Positions 54,079 to 60,257 of a DNA stretch of 64,000 nucleotides are shown one piece after another. The first letter of the stretch is position 1, and every line of letters starts with the position of its first letter. A program made the position numbers and the translations under genes. Source of the DNA: Burkholderiales bacterium Ga0077544 (GTDB lineage: Bacteria; Pseudomonadota; Gammaproteobacteria; Burkholderiales; Burkholderiaceae_D); assembly GCA_001464355.1 (NCBI GenBank), contig LNEU01000026.1:310001-374000 (forward strand), in the 5' to 3' direction. Below the pieces are notes generated by a model. That model saw only the letters and a program-made list of their open reading frames with translations, did not search any database and was not told the origin of the DNA.

Positions 54079-54930
54079 TTACTTCTGCGACAGGTTCAAA
54101 CGGCTCCAGATTGCATGCGTCGCTGCTGCCTGATTCAATGTATAGAAATGCAAGCCTGGCGCACCACCGGCCAGCAAACGCTCGCACAAATCGGTGACCA
54201 CATCCAGACCGAAAGCGCGTATCGAATCGGTATCGTCGTTATAGCTAGCCAGCTTCAAACGTATCCAGCGCGGGATTTCGGCACCGCACATATCCGAGAA
54301 ACGCATCAGCTGCGAGTAATTGGTAATCGGCATCACGCCAGCGGTGACCGGCACATCGGCACCTGCCTTGCTCGCATCCTCGACAAAGCGGAAATAAGCA
54401 TCCGCATTGTAGAAATACTGCGTGATCGCCGAGTTCGCGCCGGCCTTGACCTTGCGTGCAAAGCTGGCGATGTCGTCGTTTGGTGATTTCGCTTGCGGAT
54501 GCATTTCCGGATAGGCAGCTACTTCGATATGGAACCAGTCGCCGGTTTCGGCACGTATGAATTCCACCAGTTCATTGGCGTAATGAAATTCGCTGGACGA
54601 CGCATCCATCGCGCCATAGCCGCTAGGCAGATCGCCGCGTAAGGCGACGATGCGTTTGATGCCATGCGATTTATACTCCTGCAAAATCGATCGCAGGCTT
54701 TCACGCGAACTTCCCAGGCAAGACAGATGCGGTGCAGCCTCATGACCGGCACCGCGTATCTCCAAAACCGTATCAAGGGTGCCGTGTTGTGTCGAACCGC
54801 CGGCGCCGAAAGTGACCGAGAAATACTTGGGATGCAATTCGGCCAGCTTGGCGCAAGTAACGCGCAATTTTTCCACGCCGAGCGGCGTCTTGGGCGGGAA
54901 AAATTCTATGCTGAAATTCTGTTGTTTCAT
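54079..54930 (-). CDS. metF: 5,10-methylenetetrahydrofolate reductase
   Basis: FAD-dependent reduction giving 5-methyl-THF for methionine synthesis. 283 residues. Conserved blocks are SIEFFPPKT (active-site Glu), TFGAGGS, HLSCLGSSR and RIVALRGDLPSGYG. The start at 54930 overlaps the upstream holin-like gene by four bases (ATGA), so the two are coupled. Confidence 0.96.
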   Translation of the reverse strand: MKQQNFSIEFFPPKTPLGVEKLRVTCAKLAELHPKYFSVTFGAGGSTQHGTLDTVLEIRGAGHEAAPHLSCLGSSRESLRSILQEYKSHGIKRIVALRGDLPSGYGAMDASSSEFHYANELVEFIRAETGDWFHIEVAAYPEMHPQAKSPNDDIASFARKVKAGANSAITQYFYNADAYFRFVEDASKAGADVPVTAGVMPITNYSQLMRFSDMCGAEIPRWIRLKLASYNDDTDSIRAFGLDVVTDLCERLLAGGAPGLHFYTLNQAAATHAIWSRLNLSQK

Positions 54931-55271
54931 TTTTCTTTGAGTATGAGCGCGGACAGTAGCCACGAAATGATGCTGTACAGGATCGCACCGCCAACCGCTG
55001 ACCAGAAACCGGCAACGTGGAAGCCGCCCACCATTTGCGACACTGCCCAGAACATCAAACCATTGATGACGAAGATAAACAAACCCAGCGTCAAAAAGGT
55101 TACAGGCAAGGTCAGCAACACGAGTATCGGACGTATCAGCGCATTCACCAGCCCCAACACCAGCGCGGCGATGATGGCCGTGCCTACGCTATCGACCGTA
55201 ATCGACTTCATCAGATAAGGAAGCGCAAACAGCGCCGCTGCATTGATCGCCCAGATTAACAATAAGCGCAT
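54927..55271 (-). CDS. Phage-holin-family/YvlD-like membrane protein
   Basis: 114 residues, four predicted membrane helices with little else (LIWAINAAALFALPYLM, IIAALVLGLVNALIRPIL, PVTFLTLGLFIFVINGLM, FWSAVGGAILYSII). Despite the family name it is a chromosomal housekeeping protein, not evidence of a prophage. Its overlap with metF and place after ahcY make it part of the leftward methyl-cycle transcript. Function unknown. Confidence 0.85.
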   Translation of the reverse strand: MRLLLIWAINAAALFALPYLMKSITVDSVGTAIIAALVLGLVNALIRPILVLLTLPVTFLTLGLFIFVINGLMFWAVSQMVGGFHVAGFWSAVGGAILYSIISWLLSALILKEK

Positions 55272-56885: not shown

Positions 56886-56921
56886 CGTTAGAAAAAAAGA
56901 AACGTGAGCGCAGTTGCTGTT
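56886..56921 (-). terminator. Possible switch-controlled terminator before ahcY
   Basis: In the ahcY leader, GCAACTGCGCTC (minus strand) can pair with GAGCGTTGC of the aptamer, with a short bulge, and is followed by a U-rich run (TTTCTTTTTTTC). Since SAH binding would hold GAGCGTTGC inside the aptamer, this reads as a terminator that ligand disrupts, giving an ON switch. Inference from base pairing only. Confidence 0.5.
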
Positions 56922-56925
56922 ACTG

Positions 56926-56985
56926 ACCGCATCAAGCCTGGTAGATCGAACGATCTATCGCAACGCTCCTTGATGCGGGTGCTAT
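56926..56985 (-). promoter_or_regulatory. SAH riboswitch aptamer upstream of ahcY
   Basis: On the minus strand the leader reads CCGCATCAAGGAGCGTTGCG, then a TAGATCG/CGATCTA hairpin, then CAGGCTTGATGCGG. This gives the three hallmarks of the S-adenosylhomocysteine riboswitch: the conserved GGAGCGTTGC strand, the AGGCT strand, and a closing P1 of CCGCATCAAG with CTTGATGCGG. SAH riboswitches in beta- and gammaproteobacteria sit before ahcY, as here. End points are approximate by a few bases. Confidence 0.9.
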
Positions 56986-57028: not shown

Positions 57029-57958
57029 TTACTTATTTGGCGCAGAGGTGCCAGGTAGCGAAACCGAGTGCACGCCTGGCGCGGCAGATTGCGATTCGAC
57101 ATTTTCCTTGATCCAACCCAGCATATCTATCCAGATACGCCTTACTTCGGCTTCCGGCGGCATTTTTTGTGCATTTGGCAATTCAATGGTGATCACCGGC
57201 ACATTTTTGTGCACGCCACTGTAATTGCCTAGCGATCCCGGATAAACCCCGACCCGATTGAGCAACAGGCGACCAAATTTGCGTGGCGGCTGTGCCGGGC
57301 CATCGAAATCCAGTACGCCAAAAGGCGCATGCACCGAGATAATGACATCTGGTTTAAACGCATGCATTTCATCATCGACCCAGCGACTTTCCGGTTCCGA
57401 CAACGGTGAATTTCCGGGAAACCGGCGCGGATCGGCGCGTGTCCGTGCCTGCCAGTATTTGGGCGCTTCCTTGTCCCAGTCAGGAGTAGGAAAATTACGA
57501 TTCAGATCGACGCCGTTGGCATTCATACGCATGGCCTTTTTCGCCAGCAAACCGTCCGGATTCACAACTGGCATGATGCGCCAGTCTATGCGCTGCGCTG
57601 CGGGTCCATTCATGCTATCGACCCAGCGATACACGATCGCCGCCGAGGTAAGTTCGTCGCCGTGTATGCCGCCCATCAGTAGCACGCGCAAGGGTGGCCT
57701 TTTTTTGTTGCGATTGAGCGCAGGCACATCCTTGGCAAGCAAGGGAAAGCCTTGCAGCGAATAACGTCCGGTCGGCACAAAGCCGCCTTTCATGCACATG
57801 ACTTTATTGACGGTGGGCATGCGTGCAATCAGTTGATCGCATAATTCACCCGGTTTCAACACGACTGCCTTTTCAGCCTGCGCAGAGAACGGCAATGCCA
57901 GTGCGCACCCCGCCACCATGAAAGTTACCCACCTGTCGATCAAGCTTGAAGCGCGCAT
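57029..57958 (-). CDS. M14-family zinc carboxypeptidase/amidase
   Basis: 309 residues with a signal peptide (about 1-28, ending FSAQA). M14 zinc motif HGDE (H-x-x-E, in GGIHGDELTSAAI), a third zinc His in VISVHAPFG, and a catalytic-type Glu in VPVITIELPN. It resembles MpaA-type murein tripeptide amidases, except that this one has a signal for export. It sits between metK and ahcY but is separated from both by terminator or riboswitch elements. Confidence 0.86.
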   Translation of the reverse strand: MRASSLIDRWVTFMVAGCALALPFSAQAEKAVVLKPGELCDQLIARMPTVNKVMCMKGGFVPTGRYSLQGFPLLAKDVPALNRNKKRPPLRVLLMGGIHGDELTSAAIVYRWVDSMNGPAAQRIDWRIMPVVNPDGLLAKKAMRMNANGVDLNRNFPTPDWDKEAPKYWQARTRADPRRFPGNSPLSEPESRWVDDEMHAFKPDVIISVHAPFGVLDFDGPAQPPRKFGRLLLNRVGVYPGSLGNYSGVHKNVPVITIELPNAQKMPPEAEVRRIWIDMLGWIKENVESQSAAPGVHSVSLPGTSAPNK

Positions 57959-58032: not shown

Positions 58033-59196
58033 TTAGAGCCCTGCTGCTGCGCGCAATGCTGCTGCCTTGTCGGTACGTTCCCAGGTGAACTCTGGTTCTT
58101 CGCGACCGAAGTGGCCGTAGGCTGCAGTTTTTTGGTAAATCGGACGCAACAGATCCAGCATTTGCACGATGCCTTTTGGACGCAGGTCGAAATGCTCCAG
58201 CACCAATTGCGCAATTTTTTCATCGCTGATTTTGCCTGTACCAAATGTGGTGACCATCACCGATGTTGGTTTTGCCACACCAATTGCGTATGAAATCTGA
58301 ATTTGCGCACGCTCTGCCAAACCAGCTGCGACGATATTTTTAGCAACATAACGGCCAGCGTAAGCAGCGGAACGATCGACTTTCGAAGGATCCTTGCCGG
58401 AGAATGCGCCGCCGCCGTGCGGAGCTGCGCCGCCGTAGGTATCAACAATGATTTTACGACCGGTCAAACCGCAATCGCCTTGCGGACCGCCAATGACGAA
58501 ACGGCCTGTTGGATTCACCAGAAAACGTGTGTCTTTCAACCATTCAGCCGGTACCACTGGCTTGATGATGCTCTCGATAACCGCTTCTTCGATGTCCTTG
58601 TGTTGCATTTCCGGCGCATGTTGCGTCGACAATACGATGGTGTCGATCGACACTGGGCGGCCATCAACGTAGCGCAAGGTGACTTGCGATTTTGCATCAG
58701 GGCGTAACCAAGGCAGGCGGCCGTCTTTGCGCAATTCTGATTGACGCTCAACGATGCGATGCGCATAGTGAATCGCGGCCGGCATCAGTTCTGCCGTTTC
58801 ATCGCAAGCGTAACCAAACATCAAGCCTTGATCGCCCGCGCCTTGGTCGAGATCGATGCCAGCGCCTTCGTCAACCCCTTGTGCGATGTCCGGCGATTGC
58901 TTGTCGTATGCGACCAAAACTGCGCAGCTTTTGTAATCGATACCGTAGTCAGCGTTGTCGTAACCGATACGCTTGATGGTTTGACGAGCGACTTCGATGT
59001 AATCGACGTTGGCGAACGTGGTGATTTCGCCAGCCAGCACAACCAGACCGGTATTGCAAAGGGTTTCAGCAGCAACGCGTGCTTTTGGATCTTGCTGAAA
59101 AATTGCGTCGAGGATCGCGTCGGAGATTTGATCGGCGACCTTGTCAGGGTGGCCTTCAGAGACGGATTCGGAGGTAAACAAAAAATCATTAGCCAT
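58033..59196 (-). CDS. metK: S-adenosylmethionine synthase
   Basis: Makes SAM from methionine and ATP. 387 residues, full length. Signature hexapeptide GAGDQG (in [12 protein letters not shown]) and the P-loop-like [19 protein letters not shown] are intact, as is the N-terminal [18 protein letters not shown] with active-site His. The leader contains a hairpin whose 3' arm ends directly at the AUG (59197-59250). Single gene with its own terminator. Confidence 0.98.
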
Positions 59197-59250
59197 CGCA
59201 GGTTCTTTCTATAGTTGGTTAGATGTCGCGGCCAACTGAATGAACCTGCG
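59197..59250 (-). promoter_or_regulatory. Start-codon-abutting hairpin in the metK leader
   Basis: On the minus strand, CGCAGGTTC (59250-59242) pairs perfectly with GAACCTGCG (59205-59197), which is immediately followed by the metK AUG. Inside it, AGTTGG (59237-59232) pairs with CCAACT (59218-59213) around a 13-base loop. The ribosome-binding region therefore lies within a stem-loop, which suggests translational control. It does not match any SAM riboswitch class I can recognise by eye. Confidence 0.75.
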
Positions 59251-59366
59251 ACGCTTTAGCGAAATTTATATACCGCCTCGCAAGTTGTCATTAACTCGGC
59301 GGTTGCTGCTTTGTGCTATTTTACGCCTCTTGAAATAAATCAGCAAAGTCTCTTGTAGAGGCCCGC

Positions 59367-60257
59367 TTGAATCGCATAAAAACTTGCATGCTCGTCCTCA
59401 CTTTCCGCCTCTTGTCTTATTTGCCCTTGCCACTTTTGCATGCAATCGGCAGCGCACTCGGCTGGGCCGTTTATTTTTCTTCATCACGGTATCGCCACCG
59501 CCTGCAAGATAATATTCGGCAGGCTGGTTTTGGCGAGTACCTGTCTGCCGCCATTGCCGAAGCTGGCAAGAATATGATGGAGTTACCATTCGTATGGTGC
59601 GCTTCGCCAGAACGGGTACTGAAAACCCTCACAATCAAAAACTGGGTTTTGGTGCAACAAGCGCAAGATGCCAAACGCGGCATCATTTTTTTGACACCAC
59701 ACCTAGGCTGCTTTGAAATTTCTGCACAGGCTGCCGCTGCACAGTTGCCGTTGACAGTGATGTACCGTCCACCGCGGCAAGCCGCATTGAAGCCGCTAAT
59801 AGAGGGCGCACGCGCACGCCACAACTTGTCTTTGGCGCCAGCAAATCTAAGTGGTGTACGCAGCCTTTTTAAAGTACTGAAAAGAAACGGTGCCATCGGT
59901 TTGTTGCCCGATCAGGTGCCGCAAGATGGCGAAGGTGTTTGGGCCGACTTCTTCGGCAAACCTGCTTATACAATGACCTTGCCAGCCAAGATGCTGGAAA
60001 TGAGTGGCGCCACCATGATTCTTGCATTCGCCGAACGCTTGCCGCGTGGCCGCGGATACACCCTGCATTTCCATCCGTTCAGTATGGCTGAAGGATTAAC
60101 GCCGCAACAGCAGGTGCGCGCAATTAACGTAGCGATGGAACAGTTAATCTCATTTTGCCCGGCACAGTATTTTTGGAGCTACAACCGTTACAAGATTCCC
60201 GCCGGCGTAGTCGGTCCAAATGAATCCGATGCATCAGTTCAAAAGGACCTCGCATGA
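59367..60257 (+). CDS. Lysophospholipid acyltransferase, LpxL/HtrB family (first copy)
   Basis: Late acyl transfer to lipid A at the inner membrane. 296 residues with an N-terminal membrane segment and the catalytic HX4E motif (HLGCFE in PHLGCFEIS). The start is a TTG at 59367, chosen because AGAGG lies five bases upstream and the family has a basic N-terminus; the ATG at 59388 has no ribosome binding site. It overlaps the second copy by four bases. Confidence 0.9.
   Translation: MNRIKTCMLVLTFRLLSYLPLPLLHAIGSALGWAVYFSSSRYRHRLQDNIRQAGFGEYLSAAIAEAGKNMMELPFVWCASPERVLKTLTIKNWVLVQQAQDAKRGIIFLTPHLGCFEISAQAAAAQLPLTVMYRPPRQAALKPLIEGARARHNLSLAPANLSGVRSLFKVLKRNGAIGLLPDQVPQDGEGVWADFFGKPAYTMTLPAKMLEMSGATMILAFAERLPRGRGYTLHFHPFSMAEGLTPQQQVRAINVAMEQLISFCPAQYFWSYNRYKIPAGVVGPNESDASVQKDLA

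Follow-up and report, generated by a model that had tools for sequence, protein, structure and literature searches.

The pocket of the SAM-II riboswitch (Rfam SAM_alpha, RF00521) contains 13 completely conserved nucleotides (U10-U12, U20, U21, G22, C23, G42, C43, U44 and A45-A47), of which U11 and U21 recognize the sulfonium of the ligand, U44 its adenine and A47 its methionine end, as stated in passages of PMC3764141. SAM-II control is mostly transcriptional, and a translational example at metX is called rare in excerpts of PMC6061858. Passages of a 2022 paper report 44 tandem SAM-II elements, in which some second copies apparently control the ribosome binding site (PMC9481103). SAM-V combines a SAM-II-like pseudoknot with translational control and also occurs as the second element in SAM-II tandems (excerpts of PMC6061858 and PMC9481103). 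The metXZ element of betaproteobacteria, which comes from the same lineage as the locus studied here, has a pseudoknot between conserved blocks (Leyn et al. 2014; excerpts of PMC4239095). The SAM/SAH riboswitch RF01727 of Rhodobacterales, like the present element, lies 5' of metK (passages of PMC2864571).

For betaproteobacterial metK, the excerpts of Leyn et al. 2014 (PMC4239095) give no known regulator and report that a search by those authors failed. The Rfam SAM_alpha model was scanned in that work; none is tabulated for betaproteobacteria in the excerpts, and the metXZ element is called new. According to a table footnote in PMC8814607, the 5' UTRs of metK, metX and metZ of B. thailandensis were suspected of carrying regulatory elements, with confirmation given as "unpublished data". 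Among the openly licensed papers listed in literature searches, none visibly places SAM-II at betaproteobacterial metK.

The metK leader and its start-site hairpin

The window, the whole stretch of DNA that was analysed, comprises 64,000 nucleotides from Burkholderiales bacterium Ga0077544. It holds a cluster of SAM-cycle genes, namely metK, ahcY with an SAH riboswitch, and metF (54079-54963), and an M14/AstE-like zinc carboxypeptidase is encoded between metK and ahcY (57029-57958, minus strand). Over the whole window, Rfam at its gathering thresholds reported only a tRNA and the riboswitch of ahcY. The latter had been recognized in the preliminary description of this DNA and is an RF01057 SAH riboswitch (59.8 bits, 56899-56977, minus strand). 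The ATG of metK lies at 59196-59194 on the minus strand, and the features of the locus are collected in Table 1.

Table 1. Features of the metK locus, in coordinates of the window
Feature	Position	Strand	Details
metK, S-adenosylmethionine synthetase	58033..59196	-	387 aa; Pfam SAM synthetase N, M and C domains
Likely metK promoter	59318..59346	-	-35 TTGCTG 59346-59341, 17-base spacer, -10 TAAAAT 59323-59318; read from sequence
SAM-II-like aptamer, whole model match	59246..59304	-	R1 83.2 bits, E 7.8e-19 in own genome; row was in the R1 seed
P1 5' strand CCGCC	59298..59302	-	pairs with GGCGG 59277-59273
L1 loop GAGUUAA, putative third strand of pocket triplex	59291..59297	-	U11 and U12 kept; U10 -> G (59295)
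P2 pseudoknot 5' strand GAC-AAC-UUGC	59280..59289	-	U20 U21 G22 C23 = 59283-59280; fully or almost unvarying across 44 sequences
P1 3' strand GGCGG	59273..59277	-	P1 alignment of 44 sequences
P2 pseudoknot 3' strand GCUAAAGCGUC	59250..59260	-	G42 C43 U44 A45 A46 A47 = 59260-59255
Proposed anti-sequestor P3, 5' strand GUCGC	59248..59252	-	complementary to 59229-59225 GCGAC; overlaps P2 and hairpin start
Hairpin, putative expression platform	59197..59250	-	outer stem (anti-SD/SD region, 9 pairs) CGCAGGUUC 59250-59242 with GAACCUGCG 59205-59197, both 5' to 3'; inner stem (6 pairs) AGUUGG 59237-59232 with CCAACU 59218-59213
Proposed P3, 3' strand GCGAC	59225..59229	-	apical loop of the hairpin; invariant in 25 leaders of alignment A2

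A hairpin with a 9-bp outer and a 6-bp inner stem, placed directly 5' of the metK AUG with the ribosome-binding region inside it, had been described previously, and the present analysis confirmed both points. The hairpin covers the SD region and the start codon, and its outer stem can be extended into the latter by U59251-A59196 and G59252-U59195. Folded alone, 59262-59180 reached -29.5 kcal/mol as compared to -16.28 kcal/mol (sd 2.98) for 200 dinucleotide shuffles, none of which was as good (z -4.44). The window's SD region (AGAAAGAACC) is weak, with a best anti-SD pairing of -0.9 kcal/mol, unlike many relatives that have AGGAG at this position. A repeat-element origin of the hairpin was dropped, as a search of its own genome at E ≤ 0.001 gave one match. 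A plus-strand reading was also dropped; metK is on the minus strand, and the plus-strand fold mirrors the same inverted repeat.

metK was present in all 100 genomes searched, its own genome included, and 90 leaders were read (G046, G065, G066, G073, G074, G077, G084, G092, G098 and G099 were left out). In the same-family leaders about 110 bases are conserved, most strongly 5' of the hairpin, with the consensus CCGCC GAGUUAA n GACAACUUGC GA GGCGG nnUAnAAAUnU CGCUAAAGCGUCGC. The conserved unit begins about 54 bases 5' of 59250 rather than at 59250 itself. The 54-base hairpin, at first taken for the element, is real and appears to be only the expression platform of a unit whose putative aptamer lies upstream.

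The metK transcript likely starts near 59311, which is probably just 5' of this aptamer. Of 56 same-family leaders examined, 43 have TAAAAT 5' of the aptamer, and in 37 of these 43 it lies 28-31 bases from the L1 loop. The proposed -35 sequence has three of six consensus bases, and the promoter is absent from the output of the promoter scan, whose sole minus-strand site is another one.

The putative aptamer and its likeness to SAM-II

Alignment A1 holds 44 sequences chosen from 56 distinct aptamers. P1 varies among them with pairing mostly kept: seven pairs were modelled, each with changes on both sides, and the two outermost, unpaired in 31 and 21 of the 44 sequences, are those beyond the inner five that the window has. 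P2 hardly varies (98.5-100% of cells pair). GCUAAAGCG is invariant in all 44 rows, as are the UU of L1 and AC-ACUUG, and the P2a end, where GUC 59252-59250 is able to pair with GAC 59289-59287, has one compensatory change. For P1 and P2 together, 90.1% of cells are paired as compared to 35-44% in controls slid by 1-3 columns. The covariation score was higher than in 500 of 500 shuffles, which ignore relatedness, and further pair types were unexceptional (84 of 500 shuffles). Because P2 hardly varies, covariation appears to support P1 and the platform and to say little on the pseudoknot.

A permissive Rfam scan (301 bases, 4227 families) aligned RF00521 to 59312-59235 over its full length (model positions 1-79 of 79), with 15.7 bits and E 0.29. 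The window element is unannotated by Rfam because this score is below the gathering score of 36 bits. Full-length SAM_alpha alignments were also obtained in three of 20 relatives (21.8, 20.9 and 16.5 bits, the first being the best of the 20), and 17 named loci, including 13 metK leaders, were all without SAM_alpha at gathering. In the alignments of the window and its relatives, GA-UU, CUUGC and GCUAAAG are in register. The window has 12 of the 13 pocket nucleotides (U11, U12, U20, U21, G22, C23, G42, C43, U44, A45, A46 and A47). Across the 44 rows of A1, the UU, UUG and GCUAAA blocks do not vary, and C23 is present in 43.

The metK leaders compare with SAM-II as follows. Both have P1, a UUGC/GCUAAA pocket, an A-rich L3, and an association with methionine or SAM genes, and the metK leaders would share the H-type pseudoknot layout with L1 as a third strand. 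In contrast to SAM-II, the metK leaders have G in place of U10, usually an additional base between P2 and P1, a GAC/GUC P2a, and a separate hairpin over the SD in place of a terminator, and they are placed 5' of metK in betaproteobacteria. No one strong pairwise score underlies homology to SAM-II, which would rest on the alignment over the full length, the identity of the pocket and the intermediates from beta- and gammaproteobacteria. Since U10 is replaced and the Rfam score stays below the cut-off, the metK leader is best filed, by these comparisons, as a SAM-II-like variant and not as a plain member. The earlier suggestion of an undescribed class resembling none known is not supported; it considered the expression platform only, and the putative upstream aptamer aligns end to end with SAM_alpha/SAM-II, below the cut-off. 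A described family accounts for the class, and not for the subtype or the placement at betaproteobacterial metK.

Position 10 largely separates the two groups. The window has G there, as do 129 of 131 unique metK leaders (from 137, after duplicate removal and a length filter; 125 were parsed as G, and G022, G032, G045 and L176 were re-read as G), with U in G020 and G075. Among canonical-type elements, mostly from beta- and gammaproteobacteria and two from other classes, 37 of 39 were parsed and had U in 36 and G in one. This difference would fit a SAM-II-fold aptamer in which U10 -> G brings another ligand or relaxed discrimination between SAM and SAH, as would the weak pairing, given in excerpts of PMC6061858, between a ligand-contacting U of SAM-V and the U presumably equivalent to U10. 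Such a change of ligand is nevertheless held to be quite improbable, given that the sulfonium readers U11 and U21 are kept, as are U44 and A47, and that the gene is metK.

Unlike in SAM-V, where the SD sits within P2a of the aptamer itself, the SD region of the window belongs to a downstream hairpin: it is placed some 45 bases further 3', with 59250-59242 as its pairing partner. Among Rfam matches up to E 10, SAM-V was absent from the window leader and 20 relatives, and RF01727 from the window leader. The metXZ element precedes metX/metZ and has a terminator (excerpts of PMC4239095), whereas a simple scan found no terminator-like sites at 59000-59500 of the window.

The putative expression platform and a proposed switch

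The pairing of the anti-SD strand (16 bases 3' of the aptamer) with the last 24 bases before the start was compared between cognate and non-cognate leaders. Cognate pairs reached -13.21 kcal/mol and non-cognate pairs -9.16 kcal/mol, a difference equalled in none of 2000 permutations of 88 dereplicated leaders (the permutations ignore relatedness) and, after stricter dereplication to 37 leaders, again in none of 2000. Shifted control segment pairs gave 14 and 401 of 2000, one of these controls being not fully neutral. The inner stem covaries as well (-6.36 versus -4.71, 0 of 5000 permutations, 29 same-family leaders, relatedness ignored). With the aptamer strand masked, SD openness was 0.296 in real leaders and 0.406 in shuffled sequences. 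When the 15 bases 3' of the aptamer were masked, 33 of 131 leaders gained over 0.3 in SD openness, as compared to 4.6% of shuffled leaders. Because both stems covary, SD openness is below that of shuffled leaders and masking has this effect, the comparisons indicate that the hairpin is a conserved stem over the metK start site. The covariation that the preliminary description had proposed to look for was thus found for both stems, and its view of a SAM-pathway regulatory RNA with a translational layout looks correct, with a hairpin over the ribosome-binding region whose pairing covaries in relatives.

It is considered quite probable that the metK leader works as a SAM-II-like riboswitch whose expression platform is translational. 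The resemblance of the aptamer and the masking of the SD are supported by sequence comparison, and from these we infer SAM as the ligand, lower metK translation as the direction, and the P3 step. The leader would carry a SAM-II fold from about 59304, with P1 formed by CCGCC and GGCGG, P2 formed between GACAACUUGC and GCUAAAGCGUC, and the hairpin following. SAM would bind the P2/L1 triplex and stabilise P2, the outer GAC/GUC pairs included, and the stabilised P2 would deny GUC to a competing helix, P3 (GUCGC/GCGAC). With P3 prevented, the anti-SD strand could bind the SD region, which would lower translation of metK. When SAM is scarce, P3 would form first during transcription, split the hairpin and leave the start site open. 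The outcome would be product feedback on SAM synthase. GUC is shared by P2 and P3, which therefore suggests a switch in which SAM keeps GUC in P2 and the SD masked.

If formed, P3 would draw on the GUC of P2, and the anti-SD strand would lie in the loop of P3. An exact downstream complement of GUCGC was present in 53 of 131 leaders, as compared to 8.2 expected from mononucleotide shuffles. Such a complement was found in 44 of 57 same-family leaders and in 9 of 74 others, and the retention of P3 mainly within its own family argues against the mechanism, as does the weak SD of the window. Within the family, GCG[AG][CU] is in place in all 29 dereplicated leaders, and the 25 leaders of alignment A2 in Table 1 were chosen from 44 listed. 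Equilibrium folding gave no clear switch: mean SD openness was 0.296 with the aptamer masked and 0.324 with it free, and masking made 14 of 131 leaders less open at the SD and three more open. Because of this, and because the best fold of the window (-29.5 kcal/mol) far outweighs P3 alone (-6.3 kcal/mol), any switching would have to be kinetic.

A more specific reading, in which the metK leaders form a subclass of the SAM-II fold with an altered adenine site and a kinetic three-way choice for GUC, is thought unlikely. If it were true, U10 -> G would alter affinity, discrimination between SAM and SAH, or even the ligand relative to the canonical SAM-II elements of the same cell, and P2, the anti-sequestor P3 and the SD-masking hairpin would all compete for GUC.

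The same aptamer could instead let SAM raise metK translation, or act mainly on mRNA stability, if bound P2 takes GUC out of the window's sequestering hairpin. The two-pair extension of the window hairpin runs over GUC and competes with P2, which alone predicts this opposite sign, and in equilibrium folding binding brings no clear closure. In many relatives, however, the stem is AGGCUC/GAGCCU and ends differently ahead of the start codon. SAM synthase is usually under feedback repression, which also speaks against this direction. A model of the Sinorhizobium metA SAM-II leader has the SD sequestered upon SAM binding (excerpts of PMC9373788), again the contrary sign. Activation or a stability effect is accordingly rated as having a slim chance, and a SAM-favoured hairpin that lowers metK translation is what we infer as most likely.

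A stand-alone translational element, either an RNA thermometer or a protein-binding hairpin with no ligand aptamer, had also been proposed for the hairpin. The hairpin is indeed stable in folding by itself and covers the start site, with the SD region paired. However, the strongest conservation is upstream, in invariant loop blocks that lie far from the start codon and align with SAM_alpha. A thermometer needs none of this, and the proposal, which leaves it unexplained, is very improbable. Equally remote is a DNA promoter or transcription-factor operator in place of an RNA, which would fit a block that is near-identical across the family and lies between the likely promoter and metK, but not P1 pairs that change on both sides, a loop that tolerates inserts (an extra stretch in the P2 loop of G040 and G078, able to form a small hairpin, and a long insert 5' of GCUAAA in several genomes), a conserved -10 box 5' of the block, or terminator-like sequence after related elements elsewhere.

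Distribution and related elements

A covariance model, R1, was built from the 44 metK aptamers alone. It matched 67 of the 90 metK leaders at E < 1e-9, a count that includes the seed, which matches by construction. Matches were found in 58 of 59 leaders of the own family and in nine of 31 from other families of the order, and the G025 leader gave a weak partial match (E 0.31). Counted by genome, with non-metK sites included, R1 had a match in 217 of the 300 examined from the order (E ≤ 0.01). At E ≤ 0.001 it was found in 90 of 229 genomes of the class and 16 of 200 of the phylum; the three samples overlap and many matches lie away from metK. Among 19 non-own loci of the class and phylum samples, eight precede a metZ-like gene (two of these genes being only about 34% identical to the reference), one precedes metK and 10 precede others.

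RF00521 itself was over its cut-off in eight of 60 genomes of the order. These eight loci, with four just below the cut-off, lie before metX (five), before a metZ-like gene (five) or in tandem leaders (two). At one Rfam-accepted SAM_alpha site (G104:C7), 5' of a gene for a cystathionine gamma-synthase family protein, RF00521 scored 39.1 bits and R1 43.9 bits (E 2.4e-8). In the window's own genome, R1 matched C33:434640-434697 before metX (34.6 bits, E 6.4e-6; RF00521 27.5 bits) and C33:404699-404794 before metH (27.8 bits, E 4e-4). Both downstream genes were named by NCBIfam, and both sites are below the Rfam cut-off or absent from its matches. R1 was weak on Rfam-accepted SAM-II elements of other classes of the phylum, with 12 of 26 matched at E ≤ 10, the best at 0.006, in the expected place. 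The link between the metK leaders and SAM-II of other classes would then run mainly through beta/gamma intermediates.

The two sites of the own genome carry canonical-type SAM-II-like elements with a GAUUUGA loop and a terminator-like sequence, followed by metX in one case (L104 833-909, C33:434632-434708; below the Rfam cut-off) and by metH in the other (L267 400-495). Because the metX leader element of this genome is SAM-II-like, the published metXZ element may itself be SAM-II-like.

Named genomes were scanned with the pattern GACAACTTGC N10-40 GCTAAAGCGTC, which found at least 120 stretches, 80 of them listed. Among the 80 listed, 70 lie directly 5' of metK, with the protein match 48 to 119 bases past the pattern, and four lie before a MatE-like transporter; two of the remaining six have fewer than 100 bases of contig left. 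Seventy-five of the 80 come from what we take to be betaproteobacteria, three are labelled only Proteobacteria, one is an uncultured bacterium and one a Bacteroidetes assembly. The genera found with the pattern include Massilia, Cupriavidus, Polynucleobacter, Janthinobacterium, Dechloromonas and Accumulibacter. The Bacteroidetes locus (L199 7101-7138) has the GATTTAA form with the same P2 strands and no Rfam call at gathering.

Related elements were also observed before other genes. Tandem leaders in L098, L103, L115, L129, L135, L139 and L140 have a canonical-type SAM-II element with a terminator-like sequence and then a metK-type aptamer, followed by an ORF of about 100 aa (MFDC or MYDC at its start) and a MATE-like transporter. 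The ORF of L129 has no Pfam match, and the L139 fragment matches Pfam MatE. An aptamer lies 5' of a MatE-like gene at L173, L190, L200 and L225. In L268-L273 (gammaproteobacteria, family f210), a SAM-II-like aptamer with a GATTTAA or GATTTAG loop, ending in GCGCTGGTT or GCGCTGGCC, precedes an ORF of about 100 aa that looks conserved by eye. At L109 (G087:C22), tandem SAM-II-type elements lie about 1.2 kb 5' of a second metK gene, which is divergent; the intervening ORF is related to the RelA/SpoT N-terminal part.

The SAM-II class is already known; what appears new is a U10 -> G subtype before betaproteobacterial metK. On the present results the Rfam model seems to overlook a large branch of the class, and the subtype is a natural pocket variant at a position that has been called invariant. 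It offers a testable candidate regulator for metK, the gene whose product makes SAM, across many genera of betaproteobacteria.
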